From contig JAJDTT010000024.1 in the NCBI GenBank assembly GCA_022827025.1, forward strand, positions 1-40,046: DNA of 40,046 nucleotides, written 5' to 3'. Positions 13,529 through 19,385 of this stretch are shown here, one piece after another. This DNA is from Acidobacteriota bacterium (lineage in GTDB: Bacteria > Acidobacteriota > UBA6911 > RPQK01 > JAJDTT01). Under the pieces are notes generated by a model. That model ran no database searches and was not told where the DNA came from. It saw only the letters and a list, made by a program, of their open reading frames with translations. Each line of letters starts with the position of its first letter. Position 1 is the stretch's first letter. A program made the translations under genes and the position numbers.

Positions 13529-15700
13529 TCAGACGAGTCTGACCCTCGCGTATCTCTGGTAGAACTTCTTGATCCCCCGTCCGGAGAACGAGACGGTCAA
13601 CTTGAGATCGTGCCGGGTGTTCTGGACCTGCAGGACGGTTCCGTGCCCGTAATCGGGATGCTCGACTCTGGCGCCCGGGGCGAAGCTCCCGCTTCCGGTG
13701 CCACCTGCCTTGCGACCCGACTTCGAGCGCCGGACCCCGGACCGTCCTGCGGAGTGACCGGTGCCCCAGAGCTGGGCCTGAGACCAGTCCGGTCCGGAGT
13801 AACGCACCAGGCGATGGGGGATCTCGGACAGGAAGCTGCTCGCCTGGCGGCGCTCCTCCACGTCTCCTCCCCACATCCTCCGGGTGCGGGCCAGGGTGAG
13901 GATCAGGCGCTTCCGGGCCCGGGTCATGCCCACGTAGCACAGCCGCCGTTCTTCTTCCAGGTTTCCCTCCGCAAGGGATCGCGTGTGGGGCAGCAGCTTC
14001 TCCTCCATTCCGACCACGAAGACGACGGGAAACTCGAGTCCCTTGGCGTTGTGAAGCGTCATCAGCGTGACCGGGGCCGCCTCGTCGTAATCGTCCGTTT
14101 CCGATCGGAGCGCGGTCTCGTCCAGGAATTCCTGGAGGCTCCGGCCGGAATCCTCATGGTCGCGGGCCGCGCCCAGCAGTTCCTGCAGGTTCAAAAGCCG
14201 GTTTTTGGCCTCCTCCGACTCTTCTCTTTCCAGGGTCCGGGCATATCCACTGGAATGCAGGATCTGCTCCACGACGAGGTGAAGGGGCTGCTCCTGGTCG
14301 ATCCACTGCCGCCACTGACCGACCAGCGCCACGAAACGTTCCAGGACGTTCCGCAACCTGCGGGGCGCATCCTCCTGTTCGGCGTCCCGGCAAACGGCGT
14401 CCCAGAGCGAGTCGCCGCCTCGCGCCGCGCCCAGGCGGAGGCGGGCCAGGCTCTTGGCTCCGATGCCTCTTGGCGGAGTGTTGATGATCCGCTCCAGCGC
14501 CAGGTTGTCCCTGGGATTGCGGGCGACCCTCAGGAAGGCGAGGGCGTCCCGGACCTCTTTCCGCTTGTAGAAGCTCACCCCTCCTACCAGACGGTAAGGG
14601 ATTCCGAAGCGGTTCAAAGTATCCTCGAACTGCCGGGACAGGAAGTTGATGCGATACAGGACGCCGATCCCCGTCTCTCCCTGTTGAAGGTAGCGTTCGA
14701 TCCTCCGGCAAACGAACAGGGATTCCGCGTGAGAGCTCTCCGCCGAGTGGACCTCGACCGGCTCTCCGCGGGGATTCTCCGTCCAGAGCCGTTTCGGCTT
14801 TCTCTCGGAGTTGTGGGAGACGACCGCCATGGCGGCGTCCAGGATGCTCTGACGGGAACGGTAGTTCTGCTCCAGCTTGACCACGACGGCTCCGGGAAAG
14901 TCCTCCTCGAAGCTGAGGATGTTGCCGACGTCGGCTCCCCGAAAGGCGTAGATGGACTGATCCTCGTCACCCACGGCGGTCACGTTCCGGTGGGTCGAGG
15001 TCAGATGCCGCACCAGGGCGTATTGACTGGAGTTGGTGTCCTGGTATTCGTCGATGAGGAGATACCGGTAGCGGTTCGACCAGGCCTCCCGGATCTCGGG
15101 CCGTTCCCGAAACAACCGGTCGGTGAGCAGTATCAGGTCGTCGAAGTCCATGGCGTTGGACTTCTCCAGATGCGCCTGATATTGCGCCATCACCGGCTCC
15201 AGCCCCTCGTGGTCGAAGGGGTCGAAGTCGTAGTCGGAATCGTAGACTCGTCTCCGGCTCCGGTTTTTCCGCTTGCTGATGAGGCTTCGGACCCGGGGCA
15301 CCGGCGAACCGATGCCCGCGTCCGCGCAGATCTTCTTGAGGATGGCGTTCTGATCGTCCGTGTCGCAGATGGAGAAGTCTCGCCCATACCCCAGGTGTTC
15401 GGCATGCCGCCGCAGGACCCGGACGCAGAAGGAATGAAAGGTCGACAGAGTCGGGACCCGGTCCAGTCCCTGCAGCAGACCCTCCACCCGGAGACGCATT
15501 TCCTGGGCCGCCTTGTTGGTGAAGGTGACCCCCAGGACCTCTCCGGGATGGCATCTCCCCCGGTGGATCAGGTGGGCGATCTTGCAGGTGATGACCCGTG
15601 TCTTTCCGCTTCCGGCGCCGGCCACCACGAGCATGGGACCATCGGTGGTGGTGACGGCCAGCTTTTGCCGGTCATTCAGAGTATTGAGGTATTCGTCCAT
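13529..15700 (-). CDS. pcrA: UvrD/PcrA-type superfamily 1 DNA helicase
   Basis: A 3'-5' DNA helicase of nucleotide excision repair, mismatch repair and replication restart. All SF1A motifs are present in 723 residues: Q motif LNDRQKLAV, Walker A AGAGSGKT (27-34), TFTNKAAQEM, TFHSFCVRVLRRH, Walker B LLIDEYQDTN, VGDEDQSIYAFRGA, LEQNYRS, VTLMTLHNAKGLEFPVVFV and LCYVGMTRARKRL. The C-terminal tail (about 640-723) carries a basic glycine/serine linker and then a small domain (GARVEHPDYGHGTVLQV) of the Tudor-like type that binds RNA polymerase in PcrA. Length and architecture match PcrA/UvrD. There is no clear Shine-Dalgarno before the ATG at 15700. It stands alone: a terminator lies upstream and htrA begins 138 bp downstream; I see no gene in that gap. 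Confidence 0.95.
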   Translation of the reverse strand: MDEYLNTLNDRQKLAVTTTDGPMLVVAGAGSGKTRVITCKIAHLIHRGRCHPGEVLGVTFTNKAAQEMRLRVEGLLQGLDRVPTLSTFHSFCVRVLRRHAEHLGYGRDFSICDTDDQNAILKKICADAGIGSPVPRVRSLISKRKNRSRRRVYDSDYDFDPFDHEGLEPVMAQYQAHLEKSNAMDFDDLILLTDRLFRERPEIREAWSNRYRYLLIDEYQDTNSSQYALVRHLTSTHRNVTAVGDEDQSIYAFRGADVGNILSFEEDFPGAVVVKLEQNYRSRQSILDAAMAVVSHNSERKPKRLWTENPRGEPVEVHSAESSHAESLFVCRRIERYLQQGETGIGVLYRINFLSRQFEDTLNRFGIPYRLVGGVSFYKRKEVRDALAFLRVARNPRDNLALERIINTPPRGIGAKSLARLRLGAARGGDSLWDAVCRDAEQEDAPRRLRNVLERFVALVGQWRQWIDQEQPLHLVVEQILHSSGYARTLEREESEEAKNRLLNLQELLGAARDHEDSGRSLQEFLDETALRSETDDYDEAAPVTLMTLHNAKGLEFPVVFVVGMEEKLLPHTRSLAEGNLEEERRLCYVGMTRARKRLILTLARTRRMWGGDVEERRQASSFLSEIPHRLVRYSGPDWSQAQLWGTGHSAGRSGVRRSKSGRKAGGTGSGSFAPGARVEHPDYGHGTVLQVQNTRHDLKLTVSFSGRGIKKFYQRYARVRLV

Positions 15701-15767
15701 GAAACCCGGATGAAGACGGCGTCGCGGGCGGAAGCAGGTGGGCTATGGGCTGCTTGGATAAGGGATG

Positions 15768-15810
15768 TAAACAAAGGGCCGGGAAAGGGGCTTGCCCTCC
15801 CGGCCCTTGG
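15768..15810 (-). terminator. Rho-independent terminator of the TPR gene
   Basis: A perfect 11-bp stem, AAGGGCCGGGA (15774-15784) with TCCCGGCCCTT (15798-15808), encloses a 13-base loop that can itself pair partly. Read on the minus strand the stem is followed by TTTGTTTAC, a T-rich tail. It sits 33 bp after the stop of the TPR gene and before pcrA, separating the two. Confidence 0.75.
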
Positions 15811-15840
15811 GGTGAATCTGCTGTCGGCAGACTGGAAGAC

Positions 15841-16839
15841 TCAGCTGACCCGCTCGACGAACTCTTCGATTCCGGCGAGGGAGTCGTTGTGGGTGGACTT
15901 GTAGAGCTGTTCCAGGTGCTTGCGGCAATGCTTGGCATGCGGCGCGCCCCGTTGGACGGAACCGCGGGCGAAGGCCTTCATGGCGTCATCGATCCGATTC
16001 TGCTGCCATCGGCCCATCCCGATATAGAAGTAGGCTTCTCCCCGCAGTCCCCGCGAGGAAGTGGCGCGCAGGGCCCGGCTGTAGCTGGAGATGGCGCCTC
16101 CCCAGTTCCTGGACTCGGCGGCGTTGCGGCCCACGGCGCCGTGGGCAATGGCCGTCTGCATCTTGACGTATTTGTCCCATTCCGCCTGGGAGGTGCCCTG
16201 CGGTTTCTTGATCGCGCCGAAGGCCCGGATGGTCTTCCGGCCATACTCGGAGGCCCTCTTCCACTGCTTCTTGGCCACGTAGATATTGGTCAGCTCGGCC
16301 ACGATCTGGAAGGTCTCCGCGGGCTTGAGCCCGGCCACCGCCTTCTCGCCGTATGAGATGTACTTGGCCTGGTTCTTGGTCCCGTAGGACATGGCCAGAA
16401 TGTAGGCGAGTCCGGCGGACGGCATCTTGGCGTAGAATTTCTCGCCGTATTGGGCCGCCTTCTGAAGCTGCCGGCTCTGGAATGCGGCATAGGTGACCAT
16501 CCTCAGCGCGTTGGGCTCGTTCGGTTTCAGGGCCAGAAGTTTCTCGCCGGCCGATACCACCTTCCGATGGTTGCCCTTGGTCTGGTACTCCTGCAGCAAC
16601 TTCACGTAGTTGCCCAGGGCATACTCACTCAGCTTCGAAGAGGGCTTGGCCTTCATGAAGCCGATGATGGCGTCCTCGCGCTTACCCAGTTCGGGTTGGT
16701 CAATGGCCGCCTTGTAGACCTGGTAGTCCTGGATGCTGTAAGGGACCTTCTGTTGTCCCGTCAGGGGGCTCAATACCAAGGCCGTCATGACCAAAGCCAA
16801 TCCGACCCGCAGACCCTTTCGGCGTGCTTTGAATGTCAT
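15841..16839 (-). CDS. Secreted tetratricopeptide-repeat protein
   Basis: Function unknown. The 332-residue protein has an N-terminal signal peptide (basic MTFKARRKGLRVG, then a hydrophobic stretch to about residue 27, cleavage plausible near LTGQQ). The rest is nearly all helical and TPR-like, with units around HRKVVSAGEKLLALKPNEPN, LQKAAQYGEKFYAKMPS, AKYISYGEKAVAGLKPAE, KRASEYGRKTIRAFG and WGGAISSYSRALRATSS. The end is rich in His, Cys and Lys. TPRs usually scaffold protein complexes, so a role in envelope assembly is an inference. I chose the ATG at 16839 because AGGAGG lies about 11 bases upstream; an ATG seven codons earlier overlaps that site. A hairpin terminator follows. A weak promoter candidate is listed upstream. 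Confidence 0.8.
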   Translation of the reverse strand: MTFKARRKGLRVGLALVMTALVLSPLTGQQKVPYSIQDYQVYKAAIDQPELGKREDAIIGFMKAKPSSKLSEYALGNYVKLLQEYQTKGNHRKVVSAGEKLLALKPNEPNALRMVTYAAFQSRQLQKAAQYGEKFYAKMPSAGLAYILAMSYGTKNQAKYISYGEKAVAGLKPAETFQIVAELTNIYVAKKQWKRASEYGRKTIRAFGAIKKPQGTSQAEWDKYVKMQTAIAHGAVGRNAAESRNWGGAISSYSRALRATSSRGLRGEAYFYIGMGRWQQNRIDDAMKAFARGSVQRGAPHAKHCRKHLEQLYKSTHNDSLAGIEEFVERVS

Positions 16840-16898
16840 CAATTGCTGTACCCTCCTCATGCAGTGTAATAAGGTTGAGTTTGAAGCAAGTGGGAGCG

Positions 16899-16928
16899 AC
16901 ACTACCACAAGCCTCGTCCCGCGTGCAA
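16899..16928 (-). promoter_or_regulatory. Weak promoter candidate for the TPR gene
   Basis: On the minus strand TTGCAC (16928-16923) is followed by 18 bases and TAGTGT (16904-16899). It lies about 60 bp before the TPR gene start. The -10 box is a poor match to TATAAT, so this is only a candidate. Confidence 0.25.
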
Positions 16929-17005
16929 TCTCCTTTGAGCCGTCGAAGCGTCCTTCCAGGGCATGATCGCCGGCCGTTCGGTCACTTCCAGGAAAGATGC
17001 TTGTC

Positions 17006-17995
17006 ATGAGTCTCCCGGAACCGCTTCCCGCCCTGGAAATCGTGGAACTGGCCCGTATCGACGGCTCGGACGAAACCCTGGCCATCACTCCCCGTTGGTT
17101 TCCCATGGACCGGTTGGCGGCGTCCATCCGGTGCATGGGCGTGGTCACGCCCCTGCACCTGCAGCCGGCTCCGGCCGGCAAGCTGAGAATCGCCATGGGG
17201 TTCCGCCGCTACCGCGCCGCTCGGGAGTACGGGTTTCGCAAGGTGCCGGCGTTGGTCTGGACTCGGGCCTCCGACCTGCAACTCTTCGACTGCGCGCTGG
17301 CCGAGAAGGTCACCGGCCCGCTTCACGACCTGGAGCGGGCGCGGGCTCTGGTCAAGCTCCGGGCGCAGTTCGGAGTCGAGGAGGAATCCCTCATCGACCG
17401 GTACCTGCCGCTCCTGAACGCGCCGCCCAGCCGCCACCGTCTCCGCGTCCTGCTCCGGCTCGGACGCCTCGACGAAGCGTTGCAGCGCGCCGTTCACCGA
17501 TCCCTGGACCCGGAAACCGCCTTCCGCCTGGCGGCCTGGAGGGTCGCGGAACGGGAATTGTTCCTGGGACTCCTGAAACGGTATGAACCGGGCCGGAACC
17601 GGCAGCGGGAACTGTTCGGCCTGCTGGACGATCTCAGGTCTTCCGAGCGCCGGCGCGGGTCCGGAGGGCTGGACCGGGTCTGGCAGGCGTCGGGCGCCAG
17701 TGAGGCGGATGAGGACGCCGGGACGGTCCGCCCCCTGCGTTTTCGCCGAATTCTGGACTGCCTCCATCGACTGCGCCGGCCCCGCCTGTCCCGCCATCAG
17801 GACCGCTACCGCCGGTTGAAGGGAGGCCTCAAGATCCCTCCCCAGATCCGCTTGCAGGTTCCGCCCTATTTCGAGGGCGATCAGCTCTCGGTCTCGTTCT
17901 CCTGCCGCAACCAGGCCGAGTTTCGGCACCTGGTGGGCAGGCTCGAGGAGATGGGCGGCCGCGCCGAGCTGGGCCGGATCTTCGAGCTGTTGTGA
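17006..17995 (+). CDS. Stand-alone ParB/RepB/Spo0J-like protein
   Basis: The N-terminal 100 residues match the ParB nucleotide-binding domain: FPMDRLAASIRCMGVVTPLHLQ, then RIAMGFRRYRAAREYGFRKVPALV. The usual GERRxRA box reads GFRRYRA (65-71), so the glutamate is a phenylalanine. A helical middle follows (DLERARALVKLRAQFGVEEESL and onward), comparable to the ParB helix-turn-helix region, then a divergent C-terminal half rich in Arg. No parA partner and no parS-like palindrome are visible, so a chromosome partition role is unlikely. I chose the ATG at 17006, with AGGAAAG nine bases upstream, giving 329 residues; another ATG three codons earlier touches that site. A radical SAM protein of the SPL type follows on the same strand after a 280-bp gap. 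Confidence 0.8.
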   Translation: MSLPEPLPALEIVELARIDGSDETLAITPRWFPMDRLAASIRCMGVVTPLHLQPAPAGKLRIAMGFRRYRAAREYGFRKVPALVWTRASDLQLFDCALAEKVTGPLHDLERARALVKLRAQFGVEEESLIDRYLPLLNAPPSRHRLRVLLRLGRLDEALQRAVHRSLDPETAFRLAAWRVAERELFLGLLKRYEPGRNRQRELFGLLDDLRSSERRRGSGGLDRVWQASGASEADEDAGTVRPLRFRRILDCLHRLRRPRLSRHQDRYRRLKGGLKIPPQIRLQVPPYFEGDQLSVSFSCRNQAEFRHLVGRLEEMGGRAELGRIFELL

Positions 17996-18050
17996 CGGTT
18001 CATGACGAAACTGAGAAGCGGCGGAGCGGCGTCGTCCTCGGCGCCGATCC

Positions 18051-18179
18051 GGGAGCGGCGCCTTCCAGGCGCCGTCCCAGGGGGTTTAGGGGGGATGGTG
18101 GTCCCCCCTCCGCAAAGCGTCTTTTAAGAGGGGCGCGTGAAACACGCCCCTCCGGGCGCCTGGAAAGACGCCCGCTCCC
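18051..18179. repeat. MITE/REP-like element with terminal inverted repeats and inner hairpins
   Basis: The left end, GGGAGCGGCGCCTTCCAGGCGCC (as GGGAGCGG plus TTCCAGGCGCC around a short variable core, 18051-18073), is the inverted copy of the right end at 18154-18179. Inside lie three more hairpins: GGCGCCT-TCC-AGGCGCC (18057-18073), GGGGGGA-N6-TCCCCCC (18089-18108) and AGGGGCG-N9-CGCCCCT (18129-18151). No coding frame is convincing here. The density of perfect stems suggests a non-autonomous mobile or REP-type repeat between the ParB-like and radical SAM genes. A related hairpin occurs at 32467-32488. With only one full copy in view, the boundaries are uncertain. Confidence 0.55.
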
Positions 18180-18181
18180 AT

Positions 18182-18201
18182 GGGCGACAGGGATGTCGCC
18201 C
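18182..18201. repeat. Perfect 8-bp hairpin next to the palindromic element
   Basis: GGGCGACA (18182-18189) and TGTCGCCC (18194-18201) form a perfect stem around GGGA. It lies two bases after the terminal repeat of the preceding element and 74 bases before the radical SAM start codon. It may be part of the same repeat unit, or act on transcript stability. Confidence 0.5.
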
Positions 18202-18275
18202 CTCCTGGCACGGGACTGATAAGCTGTAGTCCGTCCCCCCCCCGCCGGCGGAAGGGGCGGGCGGAGGCCGATGCC

Positions 18276-19385
18276 ATGGTTGCGTATACACCGGACAAGA
18301 TTTACGTGGAGCGCGGCGTGGCGGACTCGTGGATCACCCGGAACGTGCTGCGCCGGCTTCCCGCCACGCCGGTCGAATGGCTCGAAGATTCCCGCACCCT
18401 GTTGTCCGCATCCCGCCGCGCGGGTCCGTCCCTGGCGGCGGCCAAGAGATCTCTGGTGTTGGCCCGGCACAAGGGACGCTTCTTCAAGGATTGTCCGGCC
18501 GGCCGGTCACGGGGAGAGCGGAACGTCTGTTGCAACTACTTCGTCGTCAATTACGCCAGCAACTGCCACATGGAGTGCAGCTACTGCTATCTCCAGACCC
18601 ATCTCAACTTCCCCCACCTGGTCGTCTACGCCAACTATCCCGACCTGTTGCAGGAGCTCGAGGCACGCTTCGAATCCCATCCCTCGACTCCCTTCCGGGT
18701 GGGAACCGGAGAGCTGGCCGACAGCCTGGCCCTGGATTCGCTGACCCGCTACTCGGTTCCCCTGGTGGAGTTCTTCTCCCGCTACGGCAACGCGATCCTG
18801 GAATTCAAGACCAAGTCGGACTGCGTCGAAAACCTGATGGGGCTGGACCATGGCGGACGGACCGTAGTGTCGTGGTCCATCAACCCCAGAGCGGTCCAGG
18901 AAAGCGACGAACATCGCACGGCGAGCATCGAACGGCGGCTCCGGGCGGCGGAACGTTGCGTTGCCGAGGGGTACCGGGTCGGGTTCCATCTGGACCCCAT
19001 GATCCATTACCCGGGCTGGCAGGGGGACTATGAGGACCTGGTCGACGAGATCTTCCGCCGGTTGCCGTCCCGGTCGGTTGCCTGGATTTCCCTGGGCAGC
19101 CTGCGCCTGAGTGCCGGGCTGAAGGCATTCATGAGGTCCCGATTCCCCCGAAGCGGACTCCCGCTGGGAGAGCTGGTCCCGGTCCCGGACGGCAAGCTCC
19201 GGTACTTCTGGCCGATTCGGGTGCGGATGTACCGTTCGGCCGTGGAGTGGGTCAGGGCTCGCAGCCCCAGGACTCCCGTCTACCTGTGCATGGAGCGTCC
19301 GGGGGTCTGGAGCAAGGTGTTTGCCCAGGCGCCGCCGGACGAGAAGCGCCTGGGCCGCAGCTTGGCCGTTACTGCGGCGCGGTGA
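18276..19385 (+). CDS. Spore-photoproduct-lyase-like radical SAM protein
   Basis: A radical SAM enzyme of the SplB-like group (COG1533). The 369-residue protein carries the [4Fe-4S] cluster motif SNCHMECSYCYLQ (Cys97, Cys101, Cys104), followed by LQTHLNFPHLVVYAN as in SPL (CxxxCxxCYLQT). Downstream, where SPL has its hydrogen-donor cysteine, this protein reads VGTGELADSLALD (142-154) with no cysteine. It is therefore a paralogous subfamily rather than a confirmed DNA-repair SPL, and I would not call it splB. Other conserved parts are LEFKTKSDCVENL, VSWSINP and GFHLDPMIHYPGW. I chose the ATG at 18276 because GGAGG lies eight bases upstream; the longer open frame runs into the palindromic repeat. 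The 3' end overlaps the convergent membrane-protein gene by 17 bp. The upstream neighbour is the ParB-like gene. Confidence 0.85.
   Translation: MVAYTPDKIYVERGVADSWITRNVLRRLPATPVEWLEDSRTLLSASRRAGPSLAAAKRSLVLARHKGRFFKDCPAGRSRGERNVCCNYFVVNYASNCHMECSYCYLQTHLNFPHLVVYANYPDLLQELEARFESHPSTPFRVGTGELADSLALDSLTRYSVPLVEFFSRYGNAILEFKTKSDCVENLMGLDHGGRTVVSWSINPRAVQESDEHRTASIERRLRAAERCVAEGYRVGFHLDPMIHYPGWQGDYEDLVDEIFRRLPSRSVAWISLGSLRLSAGLKAFMRSRFPRSGLPLGELVPVPDGKLRYFWPIRVRMYRSAVEWVRARSPRTPVYLCMERPGVWSKVFAQAPPDEKRLGRSLAVTAAR

Follow-up and report, generated by a model that had tools for sequence, protein, structure and literature searches.

A spore photoproduct lyase-fold radical SAM protein, a ParB-like partner and a GT2 glycosyltransferase as a candidate three-gene set in at least ten bacterial phyla

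An SPL-like radical SAM enzyme, named here after spore photoproduct lyase (SPL), a ParB-like partner and a GT2 glycosyltransferase (GT) appear to constitute a functional three-gene set, which occurs in at least ten bacterial phyla and is well supported by comparison. As an explanation for this three-component system, a sugar-adding modification of nucleic acid is our tentative first choice, slightly favoured over a small-molecule pathway. Two of the genes lie in the window, the 40,046-nucleotide stretch of DNA analysed here, which belongs to an Acidobacteriota-type MAG of 5.3 Mb in 318 contigs. On the strength of this lineage the host is presumed to be a non-spore-former. The initial annotation had placed a ParB-domain protein followed by an SPL-like radical SAM protein on the same strand, and both ORFs were found there, with Pfam ParB_N and SPL matches above cut-off (Table 1). 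The third component is outside the window, on contig C51, and was therefore invisible to that annotation; it changes the picture of the pair.

Table 1. Features of the ParB-like/SPL-like gene pair, in window coordinates.
Feature	Position	Strand	Basis
ParB-like partner gene (P0001)	17006..17995	+	ORF; Pfam ParB_N; AF2 mean pLDDT 95.8; Foldseek ParB/Noc/KorB
ParB_N domain, nucleotide-binding fold, residues 37-105 of P0001	17105..17311	+	Pfam PF02195 E 6.5e-10, above cut-off
Box II, GFRR replacing GERR	17198..17209	+	sequence; G[FYWL][RK]R across family
Unnamed C-terminal domain of partner (A6)	17564..17992	+	alignments A4/A6; no Pfam family; fused to enzyme in L072, L117
SPL-like radical SAM enzyme gene, 369 aa	18276..19385	+	Pfam SPL 104.8 bits; AF2 pLDDT 94.1; Foldseek SPL TM 0.78-0.86
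C73, first of the extra four-cysteine set; aligned with SPL position 76 (S76C in 4rh0)	18492..18494	+	
C85-C86, within the extra four-cysteine set	18528..18533	+	
CX3CX2C motif, C97/C101/C104, radical SAM [4Fe-4S] cluster binding	18564..18587	+	invariant in 73 sequences
GTGE, residues 143-146; E146 aligned with catalytic Cys140 of SPL	18702..18713	+	profile alignment to 4rh0/4fhg
C338, last of the extra four-cysteine set	19287..19289	+	

Two ATG candidates, at 16997 and 17006, were available for the ParB-like gene and the latter was preferred because congeners begin at its equivalent; for the SPL-like gene the ATG at 18276 is best taken as the start. In the window the two genes are 280 bp apart. 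The minus strand carries a TPR protein and PcrA/UvrD upstream of the pair (13529-17196, kept in related Acidobacteriota loci), PcrA being two genes away, and a small protein, an OmpA-family protein and two ORFs resembling M16 peptidases (these last by eye) downstream.

The adjacency of the ParB-like and SPL-like genes is far beyond chance. In 60 related genomes the two are neighbours in nearly all of those having both. Scanning species genomes yielded 413 relatives, the best 80 of which were kept as loci; these are best matches and not a random sample, with thresholds of our own choosing and mostly MAGs as genomes. They come from Acidobacteriota, Deltaproteobacteria/Desulfobacterota, Omnitrophota, WOR-1, Zixibacteria, KSB1, Nitrospinae, Nitrospirae, Sumerlaeota, Calditrichaeota and others. 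Among the 77 of these best 80 loci with enough sequence, the partner gene immediately precedes the SPL-like gene on the same strand in 57 (53 by script, and L076, L079, L090 and L098 by coordinates, since these four had been missed by stop-to-stop ORFs), and partner domain and enzyme share one open frame in two (L072 and L117, the latter starting at a contig edge). Most pairs are co-directional with ORFs that overlap or lie no more than 60 nt apart. Where the partner is not beside the SPL-like gene, it was encoded elsewhere in 15 of 16 genomes searched, and among 247 Acidobacteriota genomes 40 had both genes, one the partner only, nine the SPL-like gene only and 197 neither. The initial annotation had named chance as the alternative to a conserved neighbourhood, and chance adjacency of the pair is ruled out by the 57 upstream partners and two fusions across phyla. 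Chance or purely ancestral synteny without any shared function is hardly credible for the set as a whole: some neighbours (TPR, UvrD, OmpA, SecA) are indeed kept only within single clades, as such synteny would have it, but the adjacency recurs with changing flanks, in fusions and in three alternative pairings, with co-occurrence in two phyla.

The front half of the partner resembles the ParB-CTPase fold of ParB, Noc and KorB, with a ParB_N fold, then an HTH-like region, and a GxRR phosphate motif; its TIGR00180 score is 46.9 bits versus a cut-off of 58.45. It differs from those proteins by an aromatic residue for E in Box II, by the loss of Box III in the window genus, by a C-terminal domain of its own, and by having neither parA nor LG[K/R]GL, the ParA-binding motif given in the main text of PMC12704722, in its N-terminus. 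As annotated initially, no parA was found beside the gene, and the canonical parA-parB pair of the genome (GERR, ENIQR) is on contig C187. The altered nucleotide box GFRRYRA was also read correctly, and G[F/Y/W/L][R/K]R is found family-wide, in the commonest forms listed. About 39 of 45 full-length partners retain Box III, (D/E)N..R, which is degenerate in the window genus and reads EKVTG in the window copy. The C-terminal ~140 residues have no Pfam family and no separate PDB match among the Foldseek matches listed. In the alignments this domain is the part common to full-length, short and fused partners, and because one clade (eleven rows) keeps it alone, having lost the ParB_N half, it is the C-terminal domain and not ParB_N that is the constant element.

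Of the DNA-binding or CTP-switch module proposed initially, the CTP switch is doubtful for the window copy, since Box III is degenerate in the genus and a whole clade is without the ParB_N half. The partner has no canonical recognition-helix motif (G[K/R]SR..VAN), and DNA binding argued from HTH charge was discarded, a mean net charge of -0.2 in the partner HTH versus 1.2 in 10 canonical ParB not being discriminating. According to the main text of a survey of orphan ParB folds (Kaljevic et al. 2025, PMC12704722), Box III is frequently lost in such orphans, which bind a variety of NTPs, and NTP specificity is unreadable from sequence. The partner is like them in its orphan ParB-CTPase fold with lineage-specific C-terminal domain and in its Box III loss, and the main text of that survey holds no link to radical SAM, photoproduct lyase or glycosyltransferase.

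Comparison gives good support for a radical SAM enzyme that has the SPL fold but differs in its catalytic residues and carries an additional site of four cysteines. Pfam PF20903 (SPL) matched at E 5.6e-30, its bit score standing against a cut-off of 27, and in Foldseek the SPL match extends over ~355 columns with 22% identity; other folds follow at a TM of about 0.4-0.5, MqnE far behind SPL. The enzyme is however not a member of true SPL (SPL/SplB; PDB 4fhc, 4rh0; TIGR04070); it scored 124.1 bits in TIGR04070, the NCBIfam SPL equivalog, against a cut-off of 400. Profile alignment employed 4rh0 (C140A/S76C) and 4fhg (C140S) as references, with the numbering checked on C90/C94/C97, and paired K180 with K174, R277 with R273, Y103 with Y96 and Y105 with Y98, in addition to E146 and C73 (Table 1). 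K174 and R273 of SPL are the residues that we take, from the SPL structure paper, to contact the lesion. Whole-chain fold, CX3CX2C (73 of 73 sequences) and the invariant Y96, K174 and R273 equivalents are thus shared with SPL, whereas Cys140 is replaced by Glu, Y98 is not kept, four cysteines are extra, and a partner gene and a GT accompany the enzyme. Of the 73 sequences, 69 have E and four have Q at position 146, and position 105 varies between I, F, Y and V, so that the Y96/Y98 tyrosine relay of SPL is not retained. The last ~70 residues, the region of the DNA-inserting hairpin, could not be aligned with SPL by sequence.

In Bacillus SPL the cysteine is the hydrogen donor (PMC3742179, PMC5368176). 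With Glu at the place of the SPL catalytic Cys, spore photoproduct repair by the known Bacillus mechanism is therefore not expected. Of the initial suggestion, the conserved neighbourhood and the SPL fold of the enzyme are supported, and a nucleic-acid system is still the leading guess. Loss of Cys140 would by itself be compatible with lesion repair, because SPL of C. acetobutylicum uses C74, on the opposite side of the pocket (PMC5368176). C73 aligns with this donor site at SPL position 74/76, yet behaves as one of the four-cysteine set C73, C85 or C75, C86 and C338, which is kept, relocated or lost jointly. Among sequences with C73, C86 and C338 that are not cut off, C85 occurs without C75 in 81 (82 counting one truncated row) and is replaced by C75 in 10; a single sequence has both, and all have at least one of the two. 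C73, C85 and C338 have jointly been lost in four Omnitrophota sequences, which carry Q146, and the divergent L153-L158 and L189 are without the set. Since cysteines that relocate and vanish jointly do so as metal ligands do, the pattern suggests a second metal site, and we infer that it may hold an auxiliary [4Fe-4S] cluster, zinc being the alternative.

One specific GT2 glycosyltransferase gene heads the operon, directly upstream of partner or enzyme, in 23 of the 80 loci, from several phyla; in L115 the GT-partner pair is found 3 kb upstream of the enzyme. The order GT-partner-SPL recurs in operons of many phyla. The gene has a Glycos_transf_2 domain (PF00535, E 1.7e-36) with an invariant DXD-type DSDD, and the scores of its orthologs stand clearly apart from those of other GT2 proteins. 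With the nearest named models, TuaG, EpsE and similar, it has the GT-A domain and the DSDD and ED motifs in common; its NCBIfam matches are all far below cut-off, and it differs as a stand-alone gene with no polysaccharide cluster. In the window genome it occupies 16364-17179 of its contig, amid housekeeping genes. EngB had been considered as the shared upstream gene of locus cluster 1 and was rejected, as one long ORF had misled and the common gene is GT2.

Co-occurrence of GT and SPL-like gene (the latter counted at E <= 1e-60) in the 247 Acidobacteriota genomes was 34 with both, 3 with GT only, 15 with SPL only and 195 with neither; the three GT-only genomes hold a divergent SPL-like gene, so that a looser search gave 37 of 37 GT-positive genomes. 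In a second phylum (198 genomes) the corresponding figures were 103, 6, 12 and 77. Fisher p values of 1e-26 to 1e-36 overstate this evidence, since relatives are not independent. Thus about half of the sampled genomes of the second phylum and about one seventh of the sampled Acidobacteriota have both genes, and the two are on one contig within 1.5 kb in 35 genomes. GT adjacency requires at least 9 changes on the SPL tree, and each two of the three genes can be found side by side: partner and SPL; GT and partner, the SPL-like gene being elsewhere (G070, G082); and GT and SPL, the partner being elsewhere (Omnitrophota). What the loci have in common is the radical enzyme and the partner domain, as a rule accompanied by the GT.

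This tracking bears on another reading, in which non-spore-formers would directly reverse thymine lesions, UV-induced or other, C73 would donate the hydrogen, the partner would load DNA and the GT would be an unrelated neighbour. Such reversal would be in line with the SPL fold, with a C73 at the alternative donor site engineered in 4rh0, with the use of C74 in C. acetobutylicum (PMC5368176), and with an EndoQ-like/UvrD gene overlapping ParB in KSB1 and PcrA near the window pair, but it is an unlikely reading, for the GT follows the SPL-like gene in two phyla and is hence not incidental, C73 changes with C85/C75 and C338 like a metal ligand, and the relay tyrosine Y98 is not conserved.

In the nucleic-acid modification that we prefer, the SPL-like enzyme would cleave SAM at the CX3CX2C cluster and generate a radical on a nucleobase held in the SPL-like pocket. 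The C-terminal domain of the partner would dock on the enzyme, the ParB_N/HTH front half, present in most lineages, may tie the complex to nucleotide or nucleic acid, and the GT2 would then add a sugar to the group installed by the radical enzyme. Both the nucleic-acid substrate and the order, radical step before glycosylation, are deduced, the former because of the SPL ancestry, the conserved pocket residues, the ParB/HTH ancestry of the partner and the EndoQ-like/UvrD overlap in KSB1. Against it count a dispensable ParB_N/HTH half, an HTH no more basic than that of canonical ParB, the absence of the GT from one Acidobacteriota family and most KSB1 genomes, and viral contigs without relatives at the sensitivity used, unlike typical DNA hypermodification genes. 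GT2 enzymes moreover act mostly on sugars, lipids or proteins, and a variant operon of GT, nucleoside-phosphorylase-like gene and divergent SPL-like gene (SPL') would suit a small-molecule pathway at least equally well.

In such a small-molecule or lipid pathway the enzyme would, like MqnE and HpnH, add or transfer 5'-deoxyadenosyl to an acceptor; where present, a nucleosidase would trim the product, the GT would glycosylate it, and ParB_N would only sense nucleotide. This is a plausible competitor, if somewhat less probable than nucleic-acid modification. It would account for the variant operons, for the PNP_UDP_1 gene that adjoins the ParB gene in some Acidobacteriota loci, for the GT2 family membership and for the lack of relatives in viral contigs; the closest solved fold is however that of SPL, which acts on DNA, with MqnE a long way behind, the two phosphorylase-like families have no detectable relation, and the main variant of the operon is without a nucleosidase. 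That RNA (tRNA or rRNA) instead of DNA is modified by the same three-step logic seems quite improbable: conserved single-copy genes in housekeeping neighbourhoods, with no mobile-element or viral context seen, agree with it, but no RNA-binding domain was found and nothing is RNA-specific. A phage or mobile system was rejected, with no relatives in viral contigs at the sensitivity used and neither the ParB-like nor the SPL-like protein matched by PADLOC models.

Base J and T4 glucosyl-hmC are made by base activation followed by sugar transfer. The likeness of the modification favoured here to these systems is one of logic only, drawn from general knowledge; the trio has a radical SAM enzyme and no oxygenase, and was not found in viruses here. 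A bolder and rather doubtful version is that a radical SAM enzyme descended from SPL and bearing a second Fe-S cluster makes a base modification, which a dedicated GT decorates and a ParB-derived partner steers, so that the trio would be a widespread chromosomal pathway, an O2-independent counterpart of the base J type and a core trait of many uncultured phyla. Three handles are at hand: a radical SAM subfamily that is classed as SPL and is unable to use the SPL catalytic cysteine, a new partner domain and an accompanying GT. If the product is a modified nucleic acid, this would mean a new glycosylated base in uncultured lineages, and otherwise a new radical SAM pathway. Some 'spore photoproduct lyase' annotations in non-spore-formers are probably misnamed genes. 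In the main texts of the literature searched, no paper was found that pairs SPL with ParB or with the GT of the trio, nor any description of the trio.

Several related arrangements were observed. In KSB1 (L107 1834-5004, L120 1822-5046) a gene encoding an EndoQ-like (TIGR00375) PHP domain fused to a UvrD helicase overlaps the ParB-like gene at its start. The variant operon of GT, nucleoside-phosphorylase-like protein and SPL' was found in L155-L157, L189 and L190 (G126, G159, G223); here SGYDCD replaces GTGELAD in SPL', and the middle gene, with futalosine hydrolase as best, sub-threshold family match, encodes a helical C-terminal part. A similarity of this part to the C-terminal domain of the partner was unsupported (hhalign probability 26). 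A PNP_UDP_1 nucleoside phosphorylase gene adjoins the ParB-like gene in the Acidobacteriota loci L198, L200, L203, L207, L209, L210 and L128, which include an Aminicenantes record, and no relation between these two phosphorylase-like families was detectable. In G008, of the same order as the window genome, ParB-like and SPL-like genes are on different contigs (L145, L146) and the GT on a third. The intergenic gap of the window pair itself contains an insert (18022-18205) which congeners are without. Pieces of it recur in the window genome (L001, 91% over 65 bp; L135, 85% over 52 bp) and inverted repeats lie within it, and by sequence it looks like a dispersed intergenic repeat.
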